Shown: piece by piece, positions 34,851 to 44,781 of the stretch
Layout: every line of letters starts with the position of its first letter
Numbering within the stretch: position 1 is the first letter of the stretch
NCBI RefSeq assembly: GCF_916700565.1
Contig: NZ_CAKAKO010000001.1
Span: 248,001 to 312,000, forward strand
From: Xenophilus sp. Marseille-Q4582
GTDB taxonomy: Bacteria; Pseudomonadota; Gammaproteobacteria; Burkholderiales; Burkholderiaceae_C
Direction: 5' to 3'
DNA length: 64,000 nt
Notes under the pieces: generated by a model
Database searches by the model: none
Told to the model about the DNA's origin: nothing
The model's input: the letters and a program-made list of their open reading frames with translations, nothing else
Translations under genes and position numbers: made by a program

Positions 34851-35897
34851 TCAAGGCAGGTTCTCGCGAAAGATCACCTGGCTGCGCGTGCTTTCCACGC
34901 CCGACAGTGGCGGCCGCCCCTCGCGCACGTTGACGAAGATGCGCACCGCGCTGGCCAGCGCCGCCTGCGGGCTCTGGGTGATCACGGCATCCATGCTGCC
35001 GTCGATGAGCAGGGCGCGCGTGTCGGGCGTCAGGCCGTGGCCGATGAACACCACCTTCTGGTCGCGGCCTGCGTCCTTCAGCGCGCGCGCCACGCCGTCG
35101 GACGCGCCGCCGATGTTGTAGATGCCGGCCAGCGTCGGGTGCTGTTCCAGCAGCGAGCGCGTCTGCAGGTAGTTCTGCTGCGAATCGTCATGGCCTTCGC
35201 GCAGGCCCACCACGTCCAGCTGCTCGAACATTTCCGAGAGCACGTGCAGGAAGCCGGCCTCGCGCTCCTCGTGCGCGCGGTAGCTGCGGCTGCCCGCGAT
35301 CAGCGCCACCTTGGCCGGCCGCGCGCCGATGAAGCGGCCGATCAGGTAACCCGCCGTGCGGCCCGCGGCGCGGTTGTCCAGGCCCAGATAGGCGGTGCGG
35401 CCCGAGTTGGACAGGTCCGAGATCAGCGTCACCACCGGCACGCCCGCGGCCACCAGTTCGCCCACGGCCTCGCGCACCGCGGGATGCTCCAGCGCCATCA
35501 GCGCGATGCCGTCGGCGCGCTCGCCATGCCGGCGCAGCGCTGTGGCCAGCTCGTGCGGGTTGAAGCTCTCGATGAATTCGGTGCGGCAGCGCACGTTGAA
35601 GGGCGTCCAGTGCTCCTGCGAGTAATGGACCATGTCGCCCAGCATGCGGATGAAGCGGTTGTTGCCGGCCGGCAGCAGGAAGCTCAGGCGCATGGGGCGC
35701 GGCGCGGCCGCGAAGGCCGCGGCGCCCTGCTCACCGGACGGGGCGGCGGGCAGGTACTCCAGTTCCGCCGCGGCCCGCATGACGCGCTGCACGGTGCCCG
35801 CCCGCACGCCGGCACGCCCGTTCAGCACCCGGTCCACGGTGGCCGTGGACACGCCGGCCAGGCGGGCGATGTCGGGGATGCGAGGGGCCTTGGACAT
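34851..35897 (-). CDS. LacI family transcriptional regulator of the transporter / RuBisCO-like gene cluster
   Basis: 348 residues. The N-terminal helix-turn-helix (IPDIARLAGVSTATVDRVLNG) and hinge are followed by a periplasmic-binding-protein-like ligand domain with LIAGSRSYRAHEEREAGFLH and GIYNIGGASDGVARAL, more like the sugar- and cyclitol-type LacI members. It diverges from the ABC transporter operon, so it most likely represses that operon and responds to the transported compound or an intermediate. No ribosome site is visible before the ATG; a palindrome TGATTCAATCA ends three bases upstream, suggesting self-control or a nearly leaderless message. Confidence 0.88.
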   Translation of the reverse strand: MSKAPRIPDIARLAGVSTATVDRVLNGRAGVRAGTVQRVMRAAAELEYLPAAPSGEQGAAAFAAAPRPMRLSFLLPAGNNRFIRMLGDMVHYSQEHWTPFNVRCRTEFIESFNPHELATALRRHGERADGIALMALEHPAVREAVGELVAAGVPVVTLISDLSNSGRTAYLGLDNRAAGRTAGYLIGRFIGARPAKVALIAGSRSYRAHEEREAGFLHVLSEMFEQLDVVGLREGHDDSQQNYLQTRSLLEQHPTLAGIYNIGGASDGVARALKDAGRDQKVVFIGHGLTPDTRALLIDGSMDAVITQSPQAALASAVRIFVNVREGRPPLSGVESTRSQVIFRENLP

Positions 35898-35899
35898 AC

Positions 35900-36009
35900 T
35901 GATTCAATCAAAAACCATCAAATCATCGGGTGGCGGAATGATGTGCTGATCGATACTATCACCGGCAGATCGATGGAGCCATCCATCAAATTTAATCAGG
36001 GTTAACCCT
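35900..36009. promoter_or_regulatory. Operator/promoter region between the LacI gene and the transporter operon
   Basis: This A/T-richer stretch holds several candidate operators: the palindrome TGATTCAATCA (35900-35910), the direct repeat CCATCAAAT at 35915-35923 and 35983-35991, two GATCGAT copies, and the perfect 12-base palindrome AGGGTTAACCCT (35998-36009). Any of these could bind the LacI-type protein; none has the usual central CG of LacI-family operators. Confidence 0.4.
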
Positions 36010-36042
36010 CTCTCGAGCGGTTCCCGCTGCAGGAGACAGGCC

Positions 36043-36120
36043 ATGCCCCATGCCCCTCGTTCCACCCTGGCCGGTGCGCGTCCGTGCACGCCGTACGGCC
36101 GCGGCGCCACGCAGGGCTGA
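36043..36120 (+). CDS. Possible 25-residue leader peptide upstream of the transporter operon
   Basis: An ATG at 36043 has AGGAG seven bases upstream and opens a 25-codon frame (MPHAPRSTLAGARPCTPYGR...) whose TGA ends 20 bases before the first permease. The permease itself has no good ribosome site. It may be a translated leader coupling ribosome entry to the permease, or a chance frame. No similarity to any family is recognised. Confidence 0.3.
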   Translation: MPHAPRSTLAGARPCTPYGRGATQG

Positions 36121-36140
36121 GGCGCTCGCGGCCACCATCC

Positions 36141-36836
36141 ATGGGTTACGACTTCGACTTCGCCAGCGTGCTGGCGGCCTGGCCCCAGTTCCTGGAAGGC
36201 GCCTGGCTGACCATCCAGCTGTCCTTCCCCGCCACCGTGATCGGTTTCGTCATGGGCACGCTGTGCGCCATCGGCCGCCGCAGCCGCGTGCGCTGGCTCA
36301 GCAGGGCCTGCGGGGCCTACGTGGAGGTGATCCGCAACACGCCGCTGCTGGTGCAGGTCTTCCTGGTCTTCTTCGGCCTGGCCACGCTGGGCTGGAAGGT
36401 GCCGGCCTTCACGGCGGCGCTGCTGGCGCTGGTGATCAACGTGGCGGCCTACTCCTGCGAAATCATGCGCGCGGGCATGGATTCGATCCACCGGGGCCAG
36501 CTCGAAGCCGCCGAATGCCTGGGCCTCACGCGCCGGCAGATCTACTGGCACGTGGTCCTGCGCCCCGCCATGGAGAAGGTGTATCCGGCGCTCACCAGCC
36601 AGTTCGTGCTGCTGATGCTGGCCACCTCCATCACCTCGCAGATTTCGGTGGAAGAGCTCACGGCCGTCGCGGCGCGCGTGCAGTCCGAGACCTTCCGCCC
36701 CTTCGAGGCCTACATCCTCGTGGCCATCGCCTACCTGGGCCTGTCCCTGCTGATGCGCCTGGGCCTGTGGTTGTTCGGCCTGATGGTCTTCACGCGCAAG
36801 CGCCGCCTCGCGGCATCGGGAGGGGCCCGCGCATGA
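36141..36836 (+). CDS. Polar amino acid-type ABC transporter permease (subunit 1)
   Basis: 231 residues, five membrane segments, HisM/GlnP-like. The early AAWPQFLEGAWLTIQLSFPA, VEVIRNTPLLVQVFLVFFGL and the EAA loop SIHRGQLEAAECLGLTRRQIYW are the family hallmarks. It is the first transporter gene after the LacI-type control region. Its ATG at 36141 lacks a clear ribosome site, possibly relying on the leader frame at 36043-36120. It overlaps the next permease by ATGA. Confidence 0.9.
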   Translation: MGYDFDFASVLAAWPQFLEGAWLTIQLSFPATVIGFVMGTLCAIGRRSRVRWLSRACGAYVEVIRNTPLLVQVFLVFFGLATLGWKVPAFTAALLALVINVAAYSCEIMRAGMDSIHRGQLEAAECLGLTRRQIYWHVVLRPAMEKVYPALTSQFVLLMLATSITSQISVEELTAVAARVQSETFRPFEAYILVAIAYLGLSLLMRLGLWLFGLMVFTRKRRLAASGGARA

Positions 36837-37513
36837 TCGACGGCGGCCTGAACATCCATCACCTGCAGTTCCTGCTGATCGGGGCGCTGTGGACGATCTG
36901 TCTGTCCATCATCGCCTTCGTGGGCGGGGGCCTGGCCGGCGGCGTGATCGCGCTGGCGCGCATCAGCCCGGTGAAGGCCGTGCGCTGGCTGGCCATCGCC
37001 TGGATCCAGCTGATCCAGGGCACGCCGCTGCTGGTGGTGCTCTTCGTGTGCTACTTCGGCCTGTCGATCATGGGGCTGGAGCTGCCAGGCCTGGTGGCCG
37101 CGAGCATCGCGATGATCGTCTACGTCAGCGCCTACCTGGGCGAGATCTGGCGCGGCTGCATCGAGTCGGTGCCGCGCACGCAATGGGAAGCGGCCGAATG
37201 CCTGGCCCTGTCGCGCGCCCAGCGCATGCGGCTGGTGGTGCTGCCCCAGGCCATCCGCATTGCCACGCCGCCCACGGTCGGTTTCATGGTGCAGATCGTC
37301 AAAAACACCTCGCTGGCGTCCATCGTCGGTTTCGTCGAGCTGGTGCGTGCCGGCCAGCTCATCAACAACTCCATCTTCCAGCCCTTCCTGGTCTACGTGC
37401 TGATCGCGGTCCTGTACTTCGCCATGTGCTATCCGCTGTCGGTGTGGAGCCGCAAGCTGGAACGGCGCCTGCATGTCGGCAGCCGCACCAGCCCTTCCGC
37501 CGCCGAGGCCTGA
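36833..37513 (+). CDS. Polar amino acid-type ABC transporter permease (subunit 2)
   Basis: 226-residue partner permease with QFLLIGALWTICLSIIAFVGGG, IQLIQGTPLLVVLFVCYFGL and EAA loop SVPRTQWEAAECLALSRAQR. Starts at the ATGA overlap with subunit 1, so the two are translated as a pair and form a heterodimeric channel. Polar-amino-acid-type channels carry amino acids, opines and some other small carboxylated compounds. Confidence 0.9.
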   Translation: MIDGGLNIHHLQFLLIGALWTICLSIIAFVGGGLAGGVIALARISPVKAVRWLAIAWIQLIQGTPLLVVLFVCYFGLSIMGLELPGLVAASIAMIVYVSAYLGEIWRGCIESVPRTQWEAAECLALSRAQRMRLVVLPQAIRIATPPTVGFMVQIVKNTSLASIVGFVELVRAGQLINNSIFQPFLVYVLIAVLYFAMCYPLSVWSRKLERRLHVGSRTSPSAAEA

Positions 37514-37529
37514 GAGACAAGAACAGCCC

Positions 37530-38258
<729 letters not shown>

Positions 38259-38294
38259 CCGCTTTTCCATCGCATACCACCAGGAGACCTTCGC

Positions 38295-39089
38295 ATGACC
38301 GCTTCCCGCATCCTCCGCCGCACGCTGCTGGCCGCCACCCTGGGCGCGCTGTGCCTGCCGGCCCTGGCCGAACTGGCCGACATCAAGGCCGCCGGCAAGA
38401 TCCGCATCGGCATCGACCTGAGCGCCCCCTTCTACGGCTACGTGGACGACAAGATGAACCCGGCCGGCTCCGACGTGGAAGCCGCGCAGCTGCTGGCCAA
38501 GGACCTGGGCGTCCAGCTGGAGATCGTGAACACGACCAACTCGGCGCGCATCCCGAACCTGCTGTCGAACAAGGCCGACCTGATCATCTCCTCGCTGTCG
38601 ATCACGCCCGAGCGCCAGAAGGCGGTGGACTTCTCCCTTCCCTATGGGGCCATCCAGGCCGCCGTGGGCGCGCCCAGGAGCCTCAAGCTCAGCGGCATCG
38701 AAGACCTGGCCGGCAAGAGCGTGGCCGTCACGCGCGGCGGTCCGCAGGACAAGATCGTGACCGAGCGTGCACCGCAGGCCAAGGTGGTGCGCTTCGACGA
38801 CGAAGCCGCGTCCATCACGGCGGCCGCCAGCGGCCAGACCGACATCGTGGCCATCACGCCGCCGATCATCGCGGCCATTGCCAAGCGCAGCCCGCAGCGC
38901 GAGTTCGAAGTGAAGTTCATCCTCCAGTCCTACCAGCTGGGCGTGGCCATGCGCAAGAACCAGCCCGAGCTGATGAACTGGGTCAATGGCTGGATCAGGA
39001 CCAACCTGGCCAACGGCAAGCTCAACGACATCCACGCCAAACACGCCGGCGTTCCGATCCCGAAGGAAATCCTCGACGGCGCCAAGTAA
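38295..39089 (+). CDS. Periplasmic substrate-binding protein of the polar amino acid-type transporter
   Basis: 264 residues with a signal peptide ending around LCLPALA. SBP family 3 fold: GKIRIGIDLSAPFYGYVDD, GSDVEAAQLLAKDLG, ADLIISSLSITPERQKAVDFS. NSARIPNLLSNKADLI carries the arginine that in amino acid-binding members clamps the ligand carboxylate, so a carboxylated ligand is likely. The family's aromatic lid at FYGYVDD is kept. The product delivers ligand to the channel encoded upstream. Ligand identity would set the entry compound of the RuBisCO-like pathway. Confidence 0.9.
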   Translation: MTASRILRRTLLAATLGALCLPALAELADIKAAGKIRIGIDLSAPFYGYVDDKMNPAGSDVEAAQLLAKDLGVQLEIVNTTNSARIPNLLSNKADLIISSLSITPERQKAVDFSLPYGAIQAAVGAPRSLKLSGIEDLAGKSVAVTRGGPQDKIVTERAPQAKVVRFDDEAASITAAASGQTDIVAITPPIIAAIAKRSPQREFEVKFILQSYQLGVAMRKNQPELMNWVNGWIRTNLANGKLNDIHAKHAGVPIPKEILDGAK

Positions 39090-39215
39090 ACCCCGCCGGT
39101 TCCCTCGACTTCTGGCCATGCACCTGCGTGCCTTCGGGCGCGCGGGCGGGGCATTGCTGCGCCCGCGCAGTGCCAGGGCCAGGGCGGACCGTCTCTCGCA
39201 CACAAGGAAAACATC

Positions 39216-39758
39216 ATGAGCCGTCATTTCGGCGCCATCCGCCAGCTGGGCTACGTGGTCCACGACATCGAAGCCGCCATGGACTACTGGAGCCGCACGC
39301 TGGGCGTGGGCCCGTGGTTCTACAACCCGCGCGTGCCGATCGTGAACTACGAGTACCGCGGCGAGAAGCACGCGCCGCACAACTCGGTCGCGCTGGCCAA
39401 TTCAGGCTACGTGCAGGTCGAACTGATCCAGACCCGCAACGACGTGCCGTCGATGTACCGCGACTTCCTGCAGGCCGGCCGCACCGGGCTGCAGCACGTC
39501 GCCTACTGGACCAGCGACTACGACGCCGACCTCGCGCGCCTGATTGCCGAAGGCTTCAAGCCCGTCATGAGCGGTGAAGTGGGCGAGAAGGGCCGCTTCG
39601 TCTACTTCGACACCGAATACCACCCGGGCACCGTGATCGAGCTGTCGGAAGTGGCCGGCCCCAAGGGCCGCATGTTCGACCTGATCCGCGCCGAGTCCGA
39701 AACGTGGGACGGCAAGACCGACCCGGTGCGTCCTTTCCCTGACCTGAGCAAGATCTGA
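39216..39758 (+). CDS. VOC superfamily protein, probable metal-dependent isomerase/epimerase of the cluster
   Basis: 180 residues with two beta-alpha-beta-beta-beta units. Candidate metal ligands fall at the four family positions: Gln10 (RQLGYVV), Glu69 (QVELIQ), His94 (GLQHVAYW) and Glu142 (TVIELSE). This Q/E/H/E set resembles the divalent-metal site of methylmalonyl-CoA epimerase-type members, which remove a proton next to a carbonyl. Its stop overlaps the start of the RuBisCO-like gene by one base (TGATG), so both are made together. The reaction is unknown; an aldose-ketose or keto-acid shift feeding the RuBisCO-like enzyme is an inference. Confidence 0.85.
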   Translation: MSRHFGAIRQLGYVVHDIEAAMDYWSRTLGVGPWFYNPRVPIVNYEYRGEKHAPHNSVALANSGYVQVELIQTRNDVPSMYRDFLQAGRTGLQHVAYWTSDYDADLARLIAEGFKPVMSGEVGEKGRFVYFDTEYHPGTVIELSEVAGPKGRMFDLIRAESETWDGKTDPVRPFPDLSKI

Positions 39759-41023
39759 TGAGCACCGAGCGCATCCACGCCAGCTACCTGATCGAGACGC
39801 CCTTCGCCCCCGAGGCCGTGGCCGAGGTGATGGCCGGCGAGCAGTCCTGCGGCACCTTCAAGCGCGTGGAGGGCGAGACCGACGCGCTGCGCGCGCGGGC
39901 GCGTGCGAACGTGGAGCGCATCGAGGCGCTGGAAACGGTGGATGCGCCCAGCCTGCCCAATGCGCTGCTGGAGCGCCAGGGCCACCCCGGCCCCTGGCGG
40001 CGCGCACGCGTGCACCTGTCCTTCCCGGTCGCCAACATCGGCGCCAACCTGCCCACGCTGGCCGCCACCGTCGCCGGCAACCTGTACGACCTGGGCGAGA
40101 GCACGGGCATGCGGCTGGAAACGCTGCAGGTGCCGGCCGACTACCGCCGCCGCTTCGAGTTGCCGCGCGTGGGCATCGCGGGCACGCGGGCCGCCACCGG
40201 CGTGGCCAGCGGCGCGCTGGTGGGCACCATCATCAAACCCAACGTGGGCTTCTCGGCCGCGCAGACGGCCGAGCTCGTCGGCCGTCTGTGCGCGGCCGGC
40301 GTGGACTTCATCAAGGACGACGAGGTCTGCGCCGACCCGGACCACGCCCCGCTGGCCGAGCGCGTGCCGGCCGTGATGGCCGTGGTGCGCGAACACCAGC
40401 AGCGCACCGGCAAGCATGTGATGGTGGCCTTCAACATCACGGACGAGGTGGACGCCATGCGCCGCCATGCCGACCTGGTGCAGCGCGAAGGCGGCAGCTG
40501 CGTGATGGCCAGCCTCAACTGGTGCGGCTACTCGGCCATTCAGGCGCTGCGCCGCCACACGCCGCTGGCACTGCACGGCCACCGCAACGGCTTCGGTGCG
40601 CTGTCGCGCCATCCGCTGCTGGGCATGGGCTATCAGGCCTACCAGGTGCTGTGGCGCCTGGCGGGGGTGGACCACATGCACGTGCATGGGCTGGGCGGCA
40701 AGTTCGCGCAGCCGGATTCCGAAGTGATCGCCGGCGCGCGTGACAGCTACACGCCGTTGGCCGAAGGCCTGGACGACACCGTGATGCCCGCCTTTTCGTC
40801 GGGCCAGTGGGCGGGCACCGTGCCCGCCACCTGGGCCGCGGTGCAGCGCGACGACCTGCTGTTCATGTCGGGCGGCGGCATCCTCGCGCACCCGGGCGGC
40901 GCGGCGGCGGGCGTGGCCAGCATCCGGCAGGCCTGGGCCGCGGTGCGTGCGGGCCAGTCGCTGCAGCAGGCCGCGCAGCAGCATGCCGAGCTGGCGCAGG
41001 CGCTGGCCTTTTTCGGCCGCTGA
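39758..41023 (+). CDS. RuBisCO-like protein (form IV type), possible OiaX-like acid-sugar phosphate decarboxylase
   Basis: 421 residues with the RuBisCO large-subunit fold. Kept, by RuBisCO numbering: K175 (K160 in TIIKPNVG), carbamylation K201 with metal ligands D203 and E204 (K186-D188-E189 in GVDFIKDDE), H294 and R295 (HGHR, 275-276), loop-6 K334 (K315 in GLGGKF), S379-GG (371-373) and the GG after HP (380-381). Changed: K177 is Asn162 and H298 is Phe. The enolisation machinery is therefore present, but true carboxylase catalysis is unlikely, and no small subunit or phosphoribulokinase is nearby. In known D-apiose/isoapionate pathways a protein of this kind (OiaX) decarboxylates a phosphate made by a DUF1537 kinase, which is the next gene here. 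Confidence 0.92.
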   Translation: MSTERIHASYLIETPFAPEAVAEVMAGEQSCGTFKRVEGETDALRARARANVERIEALETVDAPSLPNALLERQGHPGPWRRARVHLSFPVANIGANLPTLAATVAGNLYDLGESTGMRLETLQVPADYRRRFELPRVGIAGTRAATGVASGALVGTIIKPNVGFSAAQTAELVGRLCAAGVDFIKDDEVCADPDHAPLAERVPAVMAVVREHQQRTGKHVMVAFNITDEVDAMRRHADLVQREGGSCVMASLNWCGYSAIQALRRHTPLALHGHRNGFGALSRHPLLGMGYQAYQVLWRLAGVDHMHVHGLGGKFAQPDSEVIAGARDSYTPLAEGLDDTVMPAFSSGQWAGTVPATWAAVQRDDLLFMSGGGILAHPGGAAAGVASIRQAWAAVRAGQSLQQAAQQHAELAQALAFFGR

Positions 41024-41070
41024 CCCTCCGCGCGGCCCGCAGCCGCGCCTTTCTTTTCCTCTGCGCCCGC

Positions 41071-42393
41071 ATGTCCCCTCCGCCCGCCATCCTCTACTAC
41101 GGCGACGACTTCACCGGCGCCACCGACACTCTGGGCACGGCCGCGCGCGCGGGCCTGCGGGCGCTGCTGTTCCTGCGCCTGCCCGACGCGGCGCAGTTGC
41201 AGGCGGCCGGTCCGCTGGACTGCGTGGGCGTGGCGGGCGCGGCGCGGGCCATGAGTCCGGCCGAGATGCGCGCCGAGCTGGCGCCGATCGCCGCGCTGTT
41301 CGCGCAGCTGGGTGCGCGCGTGCTGCACTACAAGCTGTGTTCCACCTTCGACAGCGCGCCCGAGGTGGGCAGCATTGGCGTGGCGCTGCAGACACTGCGT
41401 GCAGGTCTGCCAGGCCACGTGCGCACGGCCGTGATCGGCGGCCAGCCCGACCTGGGCCGCTACTGCCTGTTCGGCAACCTCTACGCGCGCGCGGGCAGCG
41501 CGGGCGAAGTCTTCCGCATCGACCGCCACCCGACCATGAGCCGCCACCCGGTCACGCCCATGCACGAGGCCGACCTGCGGCGCCACCTGGCGGCGCAGGG
41601 CCTGGCCGATCTGCGGCTGGCGCCCTGGCTGCTGCACGACGCGGGGGAGCCGGCGCTGGCGCAGGCCTGGGGCGCAGCGGCGGGCTCGGACGGGCTGCTC
41701 TTCGACGTGCGCGACAACGACGACCTGCGGCGCATCGGCGCCGTGCTGTGGCGTGCGGCGCAGCAGGAGCCGCTGCTCGCGGCCGGGGCCAGCAGCGTGG
41801 TGCAGGCGCTGGCGCCGCAACTGGTGCAAGGCACCGCGCCCTCACAGGCGTTGGCGCCGGCCGTGTCGCCGGTTTTCGCCCTGGCCGGCAGCCTGTCGCC
41901 CGTCACGGCGGCGCAGGTCGCGGCGGCGCAGTCCTTCGAAGTGGCCTGGATCGAGCCGCTGCCGCTGTGCACGGACGCGGCCTTTCTGCAGCGCCAGGCT
42001 GAAGCGCTGGCCGCGCGCCTGCAGGCCGGCCGTCACGTGCTGGCCTGCACGGTACGCCCGGGCCAGTCGCCGGCCGCCGATGCCGGCGTGAGCGGCCGCG
42101 AACTGGCGCTGGCCGGCGGCCGGCTGCTGCGCGCCGTGCTGCACCTGGCGCCGCTCGTGCGGCGCGTGGGCGTGGCGGGGGGCGACACCTCCAGCCATGC
42201 GGTGCAGGCGCTCGACGCCTGGGGCCTGTCCTACCGCGCCGTGGTGTCGGCCGGCGTGTCGCTGTGCCGGCTGCACAGCGACGAGGTGCTGCGCGACGGG
42301 CTGGAGATCGCACTCAAGGGCGGGCAGATGGGGCCGGTCGACCTGTTCGAGCGTCTCGTGCATGGCGCGCCGGATGAGGGAGCCGGGGCCTGA
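41071..42393 (+). CDS. DUF1537 four-carbon acid sugar kinase family protein (OiaK/OtnK-like)
   Basis: 440 residues. The N-terminal substrate domain begins ILYYGDDFTGATDTLGTAAR, the family's acid-binding signature, and contains HYKLCSTFDSAPEVGSIG. The C-terminal nucleotide domain has VAGGDTSSHAVQALDAWG and the terminal LKGGQMGPVDLFERL (usual form KxGgfG). Members phosphorylate 3-oxo or 2-oxo four-carbon acid sugars, or 3-oxo-isoapionate in OiaK. It follows the RuBisCO-like gene by 47 bases and is last before a strong terminator. Phosphorylation would supply the phosphate that the RuBisCO-like fold binds. Confidence 0.92.
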   Translation: MSPPPAILYYGDDFTGATDTLGTAARAGLRALLFLRLPDAAQLQAAGPLDCVGVAGAARAMSPAEMRAELAPIAALFAQLGARVLHYKLCSTFDSAPEVGSIGVALQTLRAGLPGHVRTAVIGGQPDLGRYCLFGNLYARAGSAGEVFRIDRHPTMSRHPVTPMHEADLRRHLAAQGLADLRLAPWLLHDAGEPALAQAWGAAAGSDGLLFDVRDNDDLRRIGAVLWRAAQQEPLLAAGASSVVQALAPQLVQGTAPSQALAPAVSPVFALAGSLSPVTAAQVAAAQSFEVAWIEPLPLCTDAAFLQRQAEALAARLQAGRHVLACTVRPGQSPAADAGVSGRELALAGGRLLRAVLHLAPLVRRVGVAGGDTSSHAVQALDAWGLSYRAVVSAGVSLCRLHSDEVLRDGLEIALKGGQMGPVDLFERLVHGAPDEGAGA

Positions 42394-42490
42394 CAGCCCT
42401 CCATTGTTCGCAACCAGCGCAGGCGCTTTCAAGGCGCCCTTTTCTTGCCCGCGCTCTGCTCGCACCAACGCCGACCAAGACATGGCGCCC

Positions 42491-42522
42491 ATGAAAAAAC
42501 CCGCCGAAGCGGGTTTCTTCAT
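42491..42522. terminator. Bidirectional terminator between the acid-sugar kinase and opgH
   Basis: ATGAAaAAACCCGC and GCGGGTTTcTTCAT pair around CGAA with one mismatch, with A- and T-rich arms on both sides. It separates the convergent transporter/RuBisCO-like operon from opgH. Confidence 0.9.
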
Positions 42523-42539: not shown

Positions 42540-44570
42540 TCAGGCCGCGGCCAGCATGCGCGCGTCGTTGGCGGCGCTCAGGCGGTCGGCGTGCATCCAG
42601 GCACGGCGCAGCACGGCGGGCGAGCGCGATTCCTCGGGAATCAGCAGGTAGCTGCGTTCGCGCATCTGCGTGCCCAGGGCGATCTGGCTCGTGACCACGG
42701 CCATCGGGATGGCCAGCAGCAGCGGCAGGCCCACCGGCAGCAGCCACATCAGGGCGCTGGCGTCGATGGCGGCCACACCCAGGGCCAGGGCCGCGATCAC
42801 GCCGCTCATCGGCAGCAGGCGGGCGGCGGCTTCGCGCCACGGCACGGCGGCGGCTTCGCGGGGGGGCGACTTCCAGTCCAGCTTGATGCCGGTCAGCGCG
42901 ACCACGACGAACAGCGAATGGGCCAGCATGCGCACGGGGGCCTGCACGATGGCCATGCCGGCTTCCAGCACGGCGCTCTTGAGCAGGGCGCCCACGCCAC
43001 CGTATTGCTTCTGCTCGCCCTTCATCAGAACGGCGGCCAGGCCCAGCACGCGCGGCAGGAACAGCAGGCACAGGGTCCACAGCCACAGGGCGGCCAGTTC
43101 CATGGGCATCACCATCCAGTGCGAGATCAGGCTCGAGCCCGACAGCCACAGGGCCGTGCCGAGGGTCAGGAAGGCCAGCCACAGCGGCGCCGACACATAG
43201 GCCATGGTGCCCGTCACGAACATGGCGCGGTGCACCGGGGCGATGCCGGGCTCGGCCATCAGGCGGGCGTTCTGCAGGTTGCCCTGGCACCAGCGGCGGT
43301 CACGCTGCAGCTCGGCCAGCAGGTCCGGCGGTTGCTGCTCGTAGCTGCCGACCAAGTCGGACACCAGCCACACGTGGTAGCCGGCGCGGCGCATCAGGGC
43401 GGCCTCGACGAAGTCGTGGCTCATGATGCCGCCGGACATGCCGCCCGTGCCCTTGATCGGCGCCAGCGCGCAATGCTTCATGAAGGGCTCGACGCGGATG
43501 ATGGCGTTGTGGCCGAAGAAATGCGATTCGCCCAGCTGCCAGAACTGCATGCCCAGGGTGAACAGGCGGCCGGTCACGCGGGCACCGAACTGCTGGGCGC
43601 GGGCGTGCAGGGTCACGTGGCCGATGGCTTGCGTGGCGGTCTGGATGATGCCGGCCGACGGATTGGCTTCCATCAGCTTGACCATGTTGACCAGGCAGTC
43701 GCCGCTCATCACGGAGTCGGCGTCCAGCACGACCATGTAGCGGTAGTCCTTGCCCCAGCGGCGGCAGAAGTCGGCCACGTTGCCGGCCTTGCGGTGCGTG
43801 CGGCGGGTGCGCAGGCGGTAGTACACCTCGACCTGCGGCTGGTTCGGATGCTCGGCCAGCGCGGCGCGCAGCTCTTCCCAGGCGGCGCGTTCGGCCTTGG
43901 CGATCTCGGGGTTGTAGCTGTCCGACAGCACGAACACGTCGAACTGCGGGGCATGGCCCGTGTTCGCCACCGATTCGCAGGTGGCGCGCAGGCCCGCGAA
44001 CACCGTCGCCACATCCTCGTTGCAGATGGGCATGACGATGGCGGTGCGCGCCTCGGGGTTCATGGGATGGTGCGCGACCTGCTTGGCCGACAGCGCATGC
44101 TTGTCGCCGCGCACGGAGACGTAGAAGCCCATCAGCGCCGTGACGAAGCCGGTCACCACCCAGCCCGACAGCAGGCCGTACAGGGCGATCTGGCCCCATT
44201 CCAGCAGCTTGTTGTCGTAGTCGGGCTGCACCTGCGCGAACAGCGTGGACGCCAGCACCGTGCTGAGCAGGGCCAGCAGGGTGAAGACGGTGCGGCGCTG
44301 CTTCGCTGCGCGCTGCCACGGCTGCGGCGGGAAGGGTTGCGCCGGCACGGCCGCGTCGCGCGTGCCCGCGCCCAGCTTCAGCAGCAGGGCGGTGCCGATG
44401 CTGTTCCAGAAACCGCGCCAGGGGCGGGGGGTCATGGAGCCGCGGTTGATGGGGGGCGCCGTCACCGAATTCGGATGGCGCTCCTCGCGCAGCGTGCTGC
44501 GCGACGACGGCGTCTTGACGGCCGATGGCATGGCCGCGGCGGTCAGGGCGGAAAAGTCGTTGGGTTTCAT
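42540..44570 (-). CDS. opgH: Glucans biosynthesis glucosyltransferase H
   Basis: 676-residue inner-membrane family 2 glycosyltransferase that polymerises the backbone of osmoregulated periplasmic glucans. Two N-terminal membrane segments lead into the catalytic domain: MPICNEDVATVFAGL, VVLDADSVMSGDC and RRWCQGNLQN (QxxRW-type motif). Further membrane segments follow. It is shorter than E. coli OpgH (about 850), mainly at both termini. GGAG lies six bases before the ATG at 44570. No opgG is adjacent. A sigma-54 promoter 224 bases upstream and two GlrR boxes point to control by the neighbouring GlrR. Confidence 0.93.
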   Translation of the reverse strand: MKPNDFSALTAAAMPSAVKTPSSRSTLREERHPNSVTAPPINRGSMTPRPWRGFWNSIGTALLLKLGAGTRDAAVPAQPFPPQPWQRAAKQRRTVFTLLALLSTVLASTLFAQVQPDYDNKLLEWGQIALYGLLSGWVVTGFVTALMGFYVSVRGDKHALSAKQVAHHPMNPEARTAIVMPICNEDVATVFAGLRATCESVANTGHAPQFDVFVLSDSYNPEIAKAERAAWEELRAALAEHPNQPQVEVYYRLRTRRTHRKAGNVADFCRRWGKDYRYMVVLDADSVMSGDCLVNMVKLMEANPSAGIIQTATQAIGHVTLHARAQQFGARVTGRLFTLGMQFWQLGESHFFGHNAIIRVEPFMKHCALAPIKGTGGMSGGIMSHDFVEAALMRRAGYHVWLVSDLVGSYEQQPPDLLAELQRDRRWCQGNLQNARLMAEPGIAPVHRAMFVTGTMAYVSAPLWLAFLTLGTALWLSGSSLISHWMVMPMELAALWLWTLCLLFLPRVLGLAAVLMKGEQKQYGGVGALLKSAVLEAGMAIVQAPVRMLAHSLFVVVALTGIKLDWKSPPREAAAVPWREAAARLLPMSGVIAALALGVAAIDASALMWLLPVGLPLLLAIPMAVVTSQIALGTQMRERSYLLIPEESRSPAVLRRAWMHADRLSAANDARMLAAA

Positions 44571-44580
44571 GGCCGGCTCC

Positions 44581-44781
44581 TCAGGCGTGGGTGTCCAGGA
44601 CCGGCGTCTCGCCGATCGCAGGCAGTCGCTTGAACACGCTGTCCGATGCACTGCCGTGGCCGGCGGGCAGAACGGAAGGGGGGGTGCCGGACGCGCGGGC
44701 GCGGCTGGCGTGGAACTGCTTGTGCCGCAGGCTGTCACGCTGCGGACGCAGAGCGAAAGATGGGCGAGTGAAGGTGTTCAT
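44581..44781 (-). CDS. Small open frame (66 residues) in the opgH leader
   Basis: Frame MNTFTRPSFALRPQRDSL... to PVLDTHA, ending ten bases before opgH so that its stop abuts the opgH ribosome site. Codon third positions are largely G or C, as in real genes here. No domain or signal is recognised and it is basic at the start. The predicted sigma-54 start site lies at about 44782, so this ATG would be at or within a base or two of the 5' end: either a leaderless gene translationally coupled to opgH, or merely part of a 210-base leader. Confidence 0.4.
   Translation of the reverse strand: MNTFTRPSFALRPQRDSLRHKQFHASRARASGTPPSVLPAGHGSASDSVFKRLPAIGETPVLDTHA

Follow-up and report, generated by a model that had tools for sequence, protein, structure and literature searches.

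A conserved operon around a distinct clade of RuBisCO-like proteins, with a proposed role in the catabolism of acids

RuBisCO-like proteins (RLPs) show how the active site of RuBisCO has been reused. OiaT, which belongs to one branch of D-apiose and D-apionate catabolism, yields 3-phosphoglycerate and glycolate. Excerpts of PMC6302742 describe, for A. radiobacter K84 and X. autotrophicus, RLPs that catalyze the decarboxylation and the transcarboxylation/hydrolysis of 3-oxo-isoapionate-4-phosphate, the second activity being that of the transcarboxylase/hydrolase OiaT; the RLP OiaX and the DUF1537 kinase OiaK belong to the same catabolism. Here we analyze a gene cluster that likewise places a DUF1537 kinase beside an RLP, in a 64,000-nucleotide stretch of Xenophilus sp. 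Marseille-Q4582 (NZ_CAKAKO010000001.1, positions 248,001 to 312,000 of the forward strand; hereafter the window, in whose coordinates all positions are given). We find that it is a real, conserved and self-contained acid-catabolic operon built around a distinct RLP clade, and its gene content points to a few enzymes that can be tested. No description of such an operon was found in the open-access literature, which is weak evidence of absence as VOC was not among the search terms.

The unit is conserved in related genomes. In a scan of one genome per species (84,980 species), relatives of the RLP were found at at least 447 places, and the best 80 of these, with RLPs 68-95% identical to the window's, form the set of related loci to which our conservation counts refer. 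The LacI-family regulator (34851..35897, minus strand; Pfam LacI and Peripla_BP_4), the VOC protein (39216..39758, plus strand; Glyoxalase_4), the RLP (39758..41023, plus strand; RuBisCO_large) and the DUF1537 acid-sugar kinase (41071..42393, plus strand; SBD_N and NBD_C) were all found in 76 of the 80. Every one of these 76 complete loci has the same layout, with the LacI gene divergent from importer, VOC, RLP and kinase genes, and the other four (L008, L022, L063, L074) end at contig edges. The layout is not a product of chance: the conserved unit is a LacI gene opposite importer-VOC-RLP-kinase. A preliminary description of this DNA had reported seven plus-strand genes opposite a LacI-type gene and proposed a survey of the neighborhood in related genomes; all eight genes were confirmed in position, each with Pfam support, and the survey returned the same unit in one layout. 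The VOC gene, which that description took for a local peculiarity, is a constant member present in 76/76 complete loci. Genes are densely packed, with an overlap of one base between VOC and RLP and a largest gap of 126 bases. The operon's RLP is the only match to the RuBisCO large-chain family in the window's genome (5.5 Mb, 99.99% complete), and a second DUF1537-family gene is encoded elsewhere in it.

A common operator also marks the unit. An operator-like direct repeat, AATCAAAAACCATCA (35906..35920, plus strand; consensus CATCA-N5-CATCA), lies in the gap between regulator and importer. A site with at most three mismatches to ATCAAAAACCATCA is present in all 87 regulator/importer intergenic regions, the window's included (47 exact), as against 6/435 for the same search in single-base shuffles, and operons with either of the two importer types described below have this one operator. 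A degenerate form of the pattern matches once in the window's genome, at 35906. Among 30 operon-bearing genomes, where the matches were inspected in part, it was found in 27 (one match in 23, two or three in 4) and a reversed control pattern in none. The single match in the window's genome suggests that the LacI-type regulator controls a one-operon regulon, and no dehydrogenase elsewhere in that genome is predicted to be under the same operator, the pattern having one match there. Direct repeats are unusual as sites of LacI-type regulators; a palindromic operator was searched for in 11 regions and none was common to them.

The RLP itself stands apart from OiaX. Its best named model is OiaX (NF042437), at 411 bits and below the curated cut-off of 700; only 7 of 397 genomes of the phylum pass that cut-off, and scores drop from 772 to 472 bits across the gap. 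In a quick tree with SH-aLRT support only, and with L135 counted in the VOC clade, VOC-linked RLPs and over-cut-off OiaX rows form separate clades, each with support of 100. The preliminary description had compared the RLP with OiaX and proposed placing it in a tree; the placement puts it outside the OiaX clade and in its own. The methionine-salvage enzyme MtnW (TIGR03332) was also tried and rejected (114.5 bits, cut-off 513.6); that description had named a place in the MtnW clade as grounds for refutation. The nearest solved relative is 3nwr, for which the structure search names no function; it aligns over 417 residues with 660 bits, as against 172 bits for the second-ranked solved RLP, and the RLP clade near 3nwr recurs in many Alpha- and Betaproteobacteria.

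Active-site residues separate the same groups. In what we take to be RuBisCO numbering, all 38 VOC-clade rows have the letters of two RuBisCO rows at K175, K201, D203, E204, H294, R295, H327 and K334, with N at the K177 position. N123 and H327 are kept in all 38 and in 22/22 other OiaX-like rows, and are replaced by G and Q in 7/7 OiaX rows; position 60 is E in 11 of 13 aligned rows and D in two, both OiaX. This full residue set would go with transcarboxylation/hydrolysis activity. Because the RLP lies outside the OiaX clade and keeps the residues that OiaX has lost, it is more likely to be OiaT-like than a plain decarboxylase.

A second line of evidence is the exchange of the RLP-kinase pair within one operon, a natural experiment that narrows down the intermediate. 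In one genus (265 genomes), the VOC gene is found at E ≤ 1e-70 in 19 genomes, of which 5 (G185 among them) have the native RLP-kinase pair and 14 have an exchanged one, in which the LacI, TRAP importer and VOC genes are those of the window-type operon and the RLP and kinase come from another clade. For instance, locus L123 resembles its nearest Azospirillum loci in LacI (about 70%), DctP (79-84%), DctQM (80%) and VOC (87%), while the closest RLPs to its own are those of L131 (74%), L129 (73%) and L144 (71%), and the closest kinases those of L144 (61%) and L131 (60%). L131 and L144 carry ApnO-type genes, defined by a PGDH_C domain with a KARI-like N-domain that we assume to denote ApnO, together with ApnL-like genes (an ApnL-like gene in L089 reaches 313 bits against 750). 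All 14 exchanged RLPs fall into one group (support 100) within a 33-row clade (support 95) whose rows are 46-56% identical to the window's RLP and in which an ApnO-type gene lies near 11 of the 19 rows that have no VOC. The hypothesis that all VOC-linked RLPs belong to a single clade fails the approximately unbiased test (p 0.003, from two quick trees); the kinase tree also keeps native and exchanged kinases apart, each as one group. Across 18 newly fetched loci the operator is kept, measured against the 15-base consensus, exactly in 14, with one mismatch in two and with two in one; L263, with four, may lack it. Since the exchanged pair has been kept through the divergence of 14 species, it presumably works in its hosts. 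The exchange within one operon suggests that the VOC-operon pair and the apionate-type pair probably handle a similar intermediate. It is the strongest argument for an intermediate common to VOC operons and apionate-type loci, with a caveat concerning L129 and L091 that is taken up below. The native pair can be exchanged for one from a clade in which ApnO-type loci are frequent; this exchange and the residues are suggestive of a relation to OiaT.

Several other genes were observed near RLPs or RLP-kinase pairs in this comparison. On a Cupriavidus pinatubonensis plasmid (L090), the pair occurs with otnK, otnC, enolase, pyruvate kinase, phosphoenolpyruvate carboxylase and an ApnO-type gene; pyruvate kinase is also found near L091, L129 and L146. 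The RLP of a Rhizobium phaseoli plasmid (NZ_CP013541.1, 934068-935279) is 71% identical to that of the ApnO-bearing L131. Excerpts of PMC8914248 report that an RLP of R. phaseoli CIAT652 is needed for growth recovery without biotin, and this protein may deserve a look as an enzyme of sugar-acid catabolism.

The VOC protein, like the LacI regulator, is an addition relative to D-apiose/D-apionate catabolism with OiaK and OiaX. Its structure model (pLDDT 93.3) best matches methylmalonyl-CoA epimerases (3gm5, 1jc4) at 22-28% identity. Its candidate metal ligands, Q10, Q67 or E69, H94 and E142, align in a profile alignment with what we take to be the epimerase metal site, and they are invariant in 98 rows (some genes twice). 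Despite this likeness in fold and metal-site positions, the protein scores 25.1 bits against the epimerase model (TIGR03081; cut-off 114.95), and the window's operon has no CoA genes. The model suggests that the VOC protein is likely a metal enzyme that takes a proton or shifts a carbonyl beside a carboxylate; it is a candidate for a new type of isomerase. A more specific version, which we regard as tentative and rather doubtful, is that it is a cofactor-free ketol-acid isomerase that would do the job of ApnO without NAD. ApnO acts by oxido-isomerization, and the VOC protein would instead shift a hydroxymethyl or carbonyl group at the chelated metal; three enzymes would then convert an environmental branched keto-acid to 3-phosphoglycerate and glycolate, a purely catabolic use of RuBisCO chemistry. 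An Asp/Glu-racemase-family gene was seen near RLP-DUF1537 pairs on an archaeal plasmid (L145, Natronosalvus) and a Bacteroidota plasmid (L149, Rufibacter), and by analogy it is perhaps a helper comparable to the VOC protein.

The importer is the variable part of the unit. In the window it consists of two permeases (36141..36836 and 36833..37513; both BPD_transp_1 and HEQRo_perm_3TM), an ATPase (37530..38258; ABC_tran) and a solute-binding protein (38295..39089; SBP_bac_3, 110 bits), all on the plus strand. Starts at ATG 36141, 36833, 37530 and, for the kinase, 41071 were chosen by eye; those of permease 1, ATPase and kinase lie inward of the longest open reading frame, which for the first two begins at 36084 and 37473. 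The permeases score 108 and 92 bits against TIGR01726 (cut-off 42) and so belong to polar-amino-acid importer families; the best NCBIfam match of the ATPase is GlnQ, at 296 bits against a cut-off of 379. Among the best 80 related loci, 67 have a TRAP importer (named from annotated plasmids and structure relatives of DctP), 12 the polar-amino-acid ABC type and in one, L022, the importer is unseen at the contig end. The ABC importer, which had been put forward as a distinguishing feature of the cluster, is therefore a minority replacement. In five loci (L050, L060, L069, L070 and L140; four from Acidovorax) an ABC importer and VOC close to the window's stand beside a diverged RLP, kinase and LacI gene, with VOC 93-94% and RLP 69-70% identical to the window's. 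Between VOC and RLP identities the difference in the 67 TRAP loci averages 6 points and never exceeds 14. Given these unequal identities, the ABC importer and VOC genes seem to have been transferred as one block.

In the TRAP variant, the closest solved relative of DctP is the TRAP binding protein 4oan (65% to L012), whose ligand we presume to be 2-acetolactate, a 2-hydroxy-2-alkyl-3-oxo acid. Excerpts of PMC5812351 list 2-acetolactate among TRAP ligands. Although 4oan resembles the operon's DctP, its own gene sits in another operon: in the genome with a 100% match, the 14 kb examined hold TRAP genes and nothing that matches VOC, RLP, LacI or kinase, and two annotated relatives are also in a different operon. 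For the window's binding protein, the structure model was too poor for use (pLDDT 51).

Setting out from the observed unity of the operon, its common operator, the separate RLP clade, its active-site residues and the RLP-kinase exchange, we infer the substrate, the VOC reaction and the RLP products as follows. The compound imported, by a TRAP system in most relatives and by the ABC system here, would be a polyhydroxy keto-acid, probably one with a branched chain, either as a 2-hydroxy-3-oxo acid or in the isomeric 2-oxo form. The VOC protein would isomerize it to the 3-oxo form and the DUF1537 kinase would phosphorylate the terminal hydroxyl. As intermediate, 3-oxo-isoapionate or something very similar is probable. 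The RLP, with its RuBisCO active site, would then shift the carboxyl group and split the chain, most likely into 3-phosphoglycerate and glycolate as OiaT does. We give this reading as a whole a probability of about 0.5. It keeps part of the preliminary description, which saw an acid-sugar pathway related to D-apiose and isoapionate catabolism: an acid route of this kinship, through an RLP and a DUF1537 kinase, stands, with the change that the RLP lies outside the OiaX clade. The operon also differs from D-apiose/D-apionate catabolism in having no lactonase or sugar importer. No ApnO family member (PF16896) was found in the window's genome by a family search whose built-in controls gave no match. 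Of 41 operon-bearing rows, among which one genome counts twice (as G328 and G412), 33 also lack the family, with 4/4 controls positive.

Alternative readings make different use of the same enzymes. If the RLP did no more than decarboxylate the 4-phosphate of a 3-oxo acid, leaving a tetrulose phosphate, as in the OiaX route through L-erythrulose-1-phosphate, the best named models, OiaX for the RLP and OiaK (NF042436) for the kinase at 293 bits, would be explained. We consider this unlikely, since both scores fall far under their cut-offs of 700, the OiaX rows proper form the separate clade in which G replaces N123 and Q replaces H327, and an erythrulose-phosphate product would need an RpiB-type enzyme. 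The RpiB type (PF02502) is missing from the window's genome and from 35 of the 41 operon rows, and is present in 3/3 OiaX genomes examined (of 7 known) and absent from the ApnO-bearing genome G091; its absence agrees with a product that would feed straight into lower glycolysis. Slightly less likely again is a linear C4 acid that the VOC protein would interconvert between 2-oxo- and 3-oxo-tetronate, that the kinase would convert to 3-oxo-tetronate-4-phosphate and that the RLP, replacing OtnC, would turn into dihydroxyacetone phosphate with no further enzyme. Such a route suits a minimal operon, glyoxalase-fold enzymes perform enediol chemistry, and DUF1537 kinases include the 3-oxo-tetronate kinase. 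However, the window's kinase scores twice as high against OiaK as against that model (144 bits), and exchanged kinases are more OiaK-like still (551 bits in L123, where the tetronate model gives 164, and 537 in L258).

The hamamelose pathway includes dehydrogenase and lactonase genes, which the window's operon lacks, and by gene content alone this sets it apart from a route in which an RLP oxygenase would use O2 to cleave a pentulose phosphate, giving 3-phosphoglycerate and glycolate; we think such a route improbable here. An RLP of that kind was reported by Kim et al. 2018, as cited in excerpts of PMC8914248 and PMC10176493. Finally, the importer might serve an amino acid and have nothing to do with the downstream genes. 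The window's binding protein belongs to SBP_bac_3, and the solved structures closest to it are those of amino-acid binders and of ancestral cyclohexadienyl dehydratases. Even so, this is very improbable: the ABC type replaces TRAP in 12 of the best 80 related loci, under one operator, and Thr188 of the binding protein aligns with an Asp of AncCDT-1 that we take to hold the ligand's amino group. Thr188 is invariant, as is Arg107, in 15 rows (one gene twice) and in 10/10, and the replacement of Asp by Thr counts against an ordinary amino acid as ligand.

Several points weigh against the keto-acid pathway that we prefer. What the VOC protein catalyzes is guessed from its fold and from the chemistry, and around VOC relatives at 51-55% identity (L162-L170, L178 and L179; seven in one genus, g124) the 8 of 11 neighborhoods examined show no RLP and no notable common neighbors. 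In G440, one of the 14 genomes with the exchanged pair, a stop lies within the VOC gene. The likeness to OiaT is argued from context and residues. In the exchange clade, L129 (19 kb) and L091 have a short-chain dehydrogenase/reductase (SDR) gene and pyruvate kinase with no ApnO nearby, and the RLP of L129 is nearly as close to that of L123 as is the RLP of the ApnO-bearing L131, so the intermediate of this clade is not proven to be 3-oxo-isoapionate. An ApnO-family gene is present elsewhere in the genome for 8 of the 41 operon rows, and the absence of RpiB may partly be a taxonomic habit. The entry compound may also vary. The absence of any dehydrogenase gene from the window's operon fits an already oxidized entry compound, as the preliminary description argued; however, an SDR gene lies between LacI and importer genes in 9 of the 80 loci and in L263, and for some operons an alcohol-level substrate exists, since ten carry this gene. 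The window's genome has no close relative of the SDR of these sister loci (5 matches, the 4 listed only 35-40% identical).

Downstream of the kinase, an inverted repeat flanked by runs of A and of T, seen by eye at 42494..42519, is a plausible terminator. A terminator had been placed at 42491-42522; the repeat is there, but an inverted-repeat scan of the window does not contain it and gives 42422-42438 instead, and terminator-like sites in the window scan number 4 against a shuffle mean of 3.5. Beyond it, a large converging open reading frame (42540-44738, minus strand) resembles, by eye, a glucan glucosyltransferase of the OpgH type.

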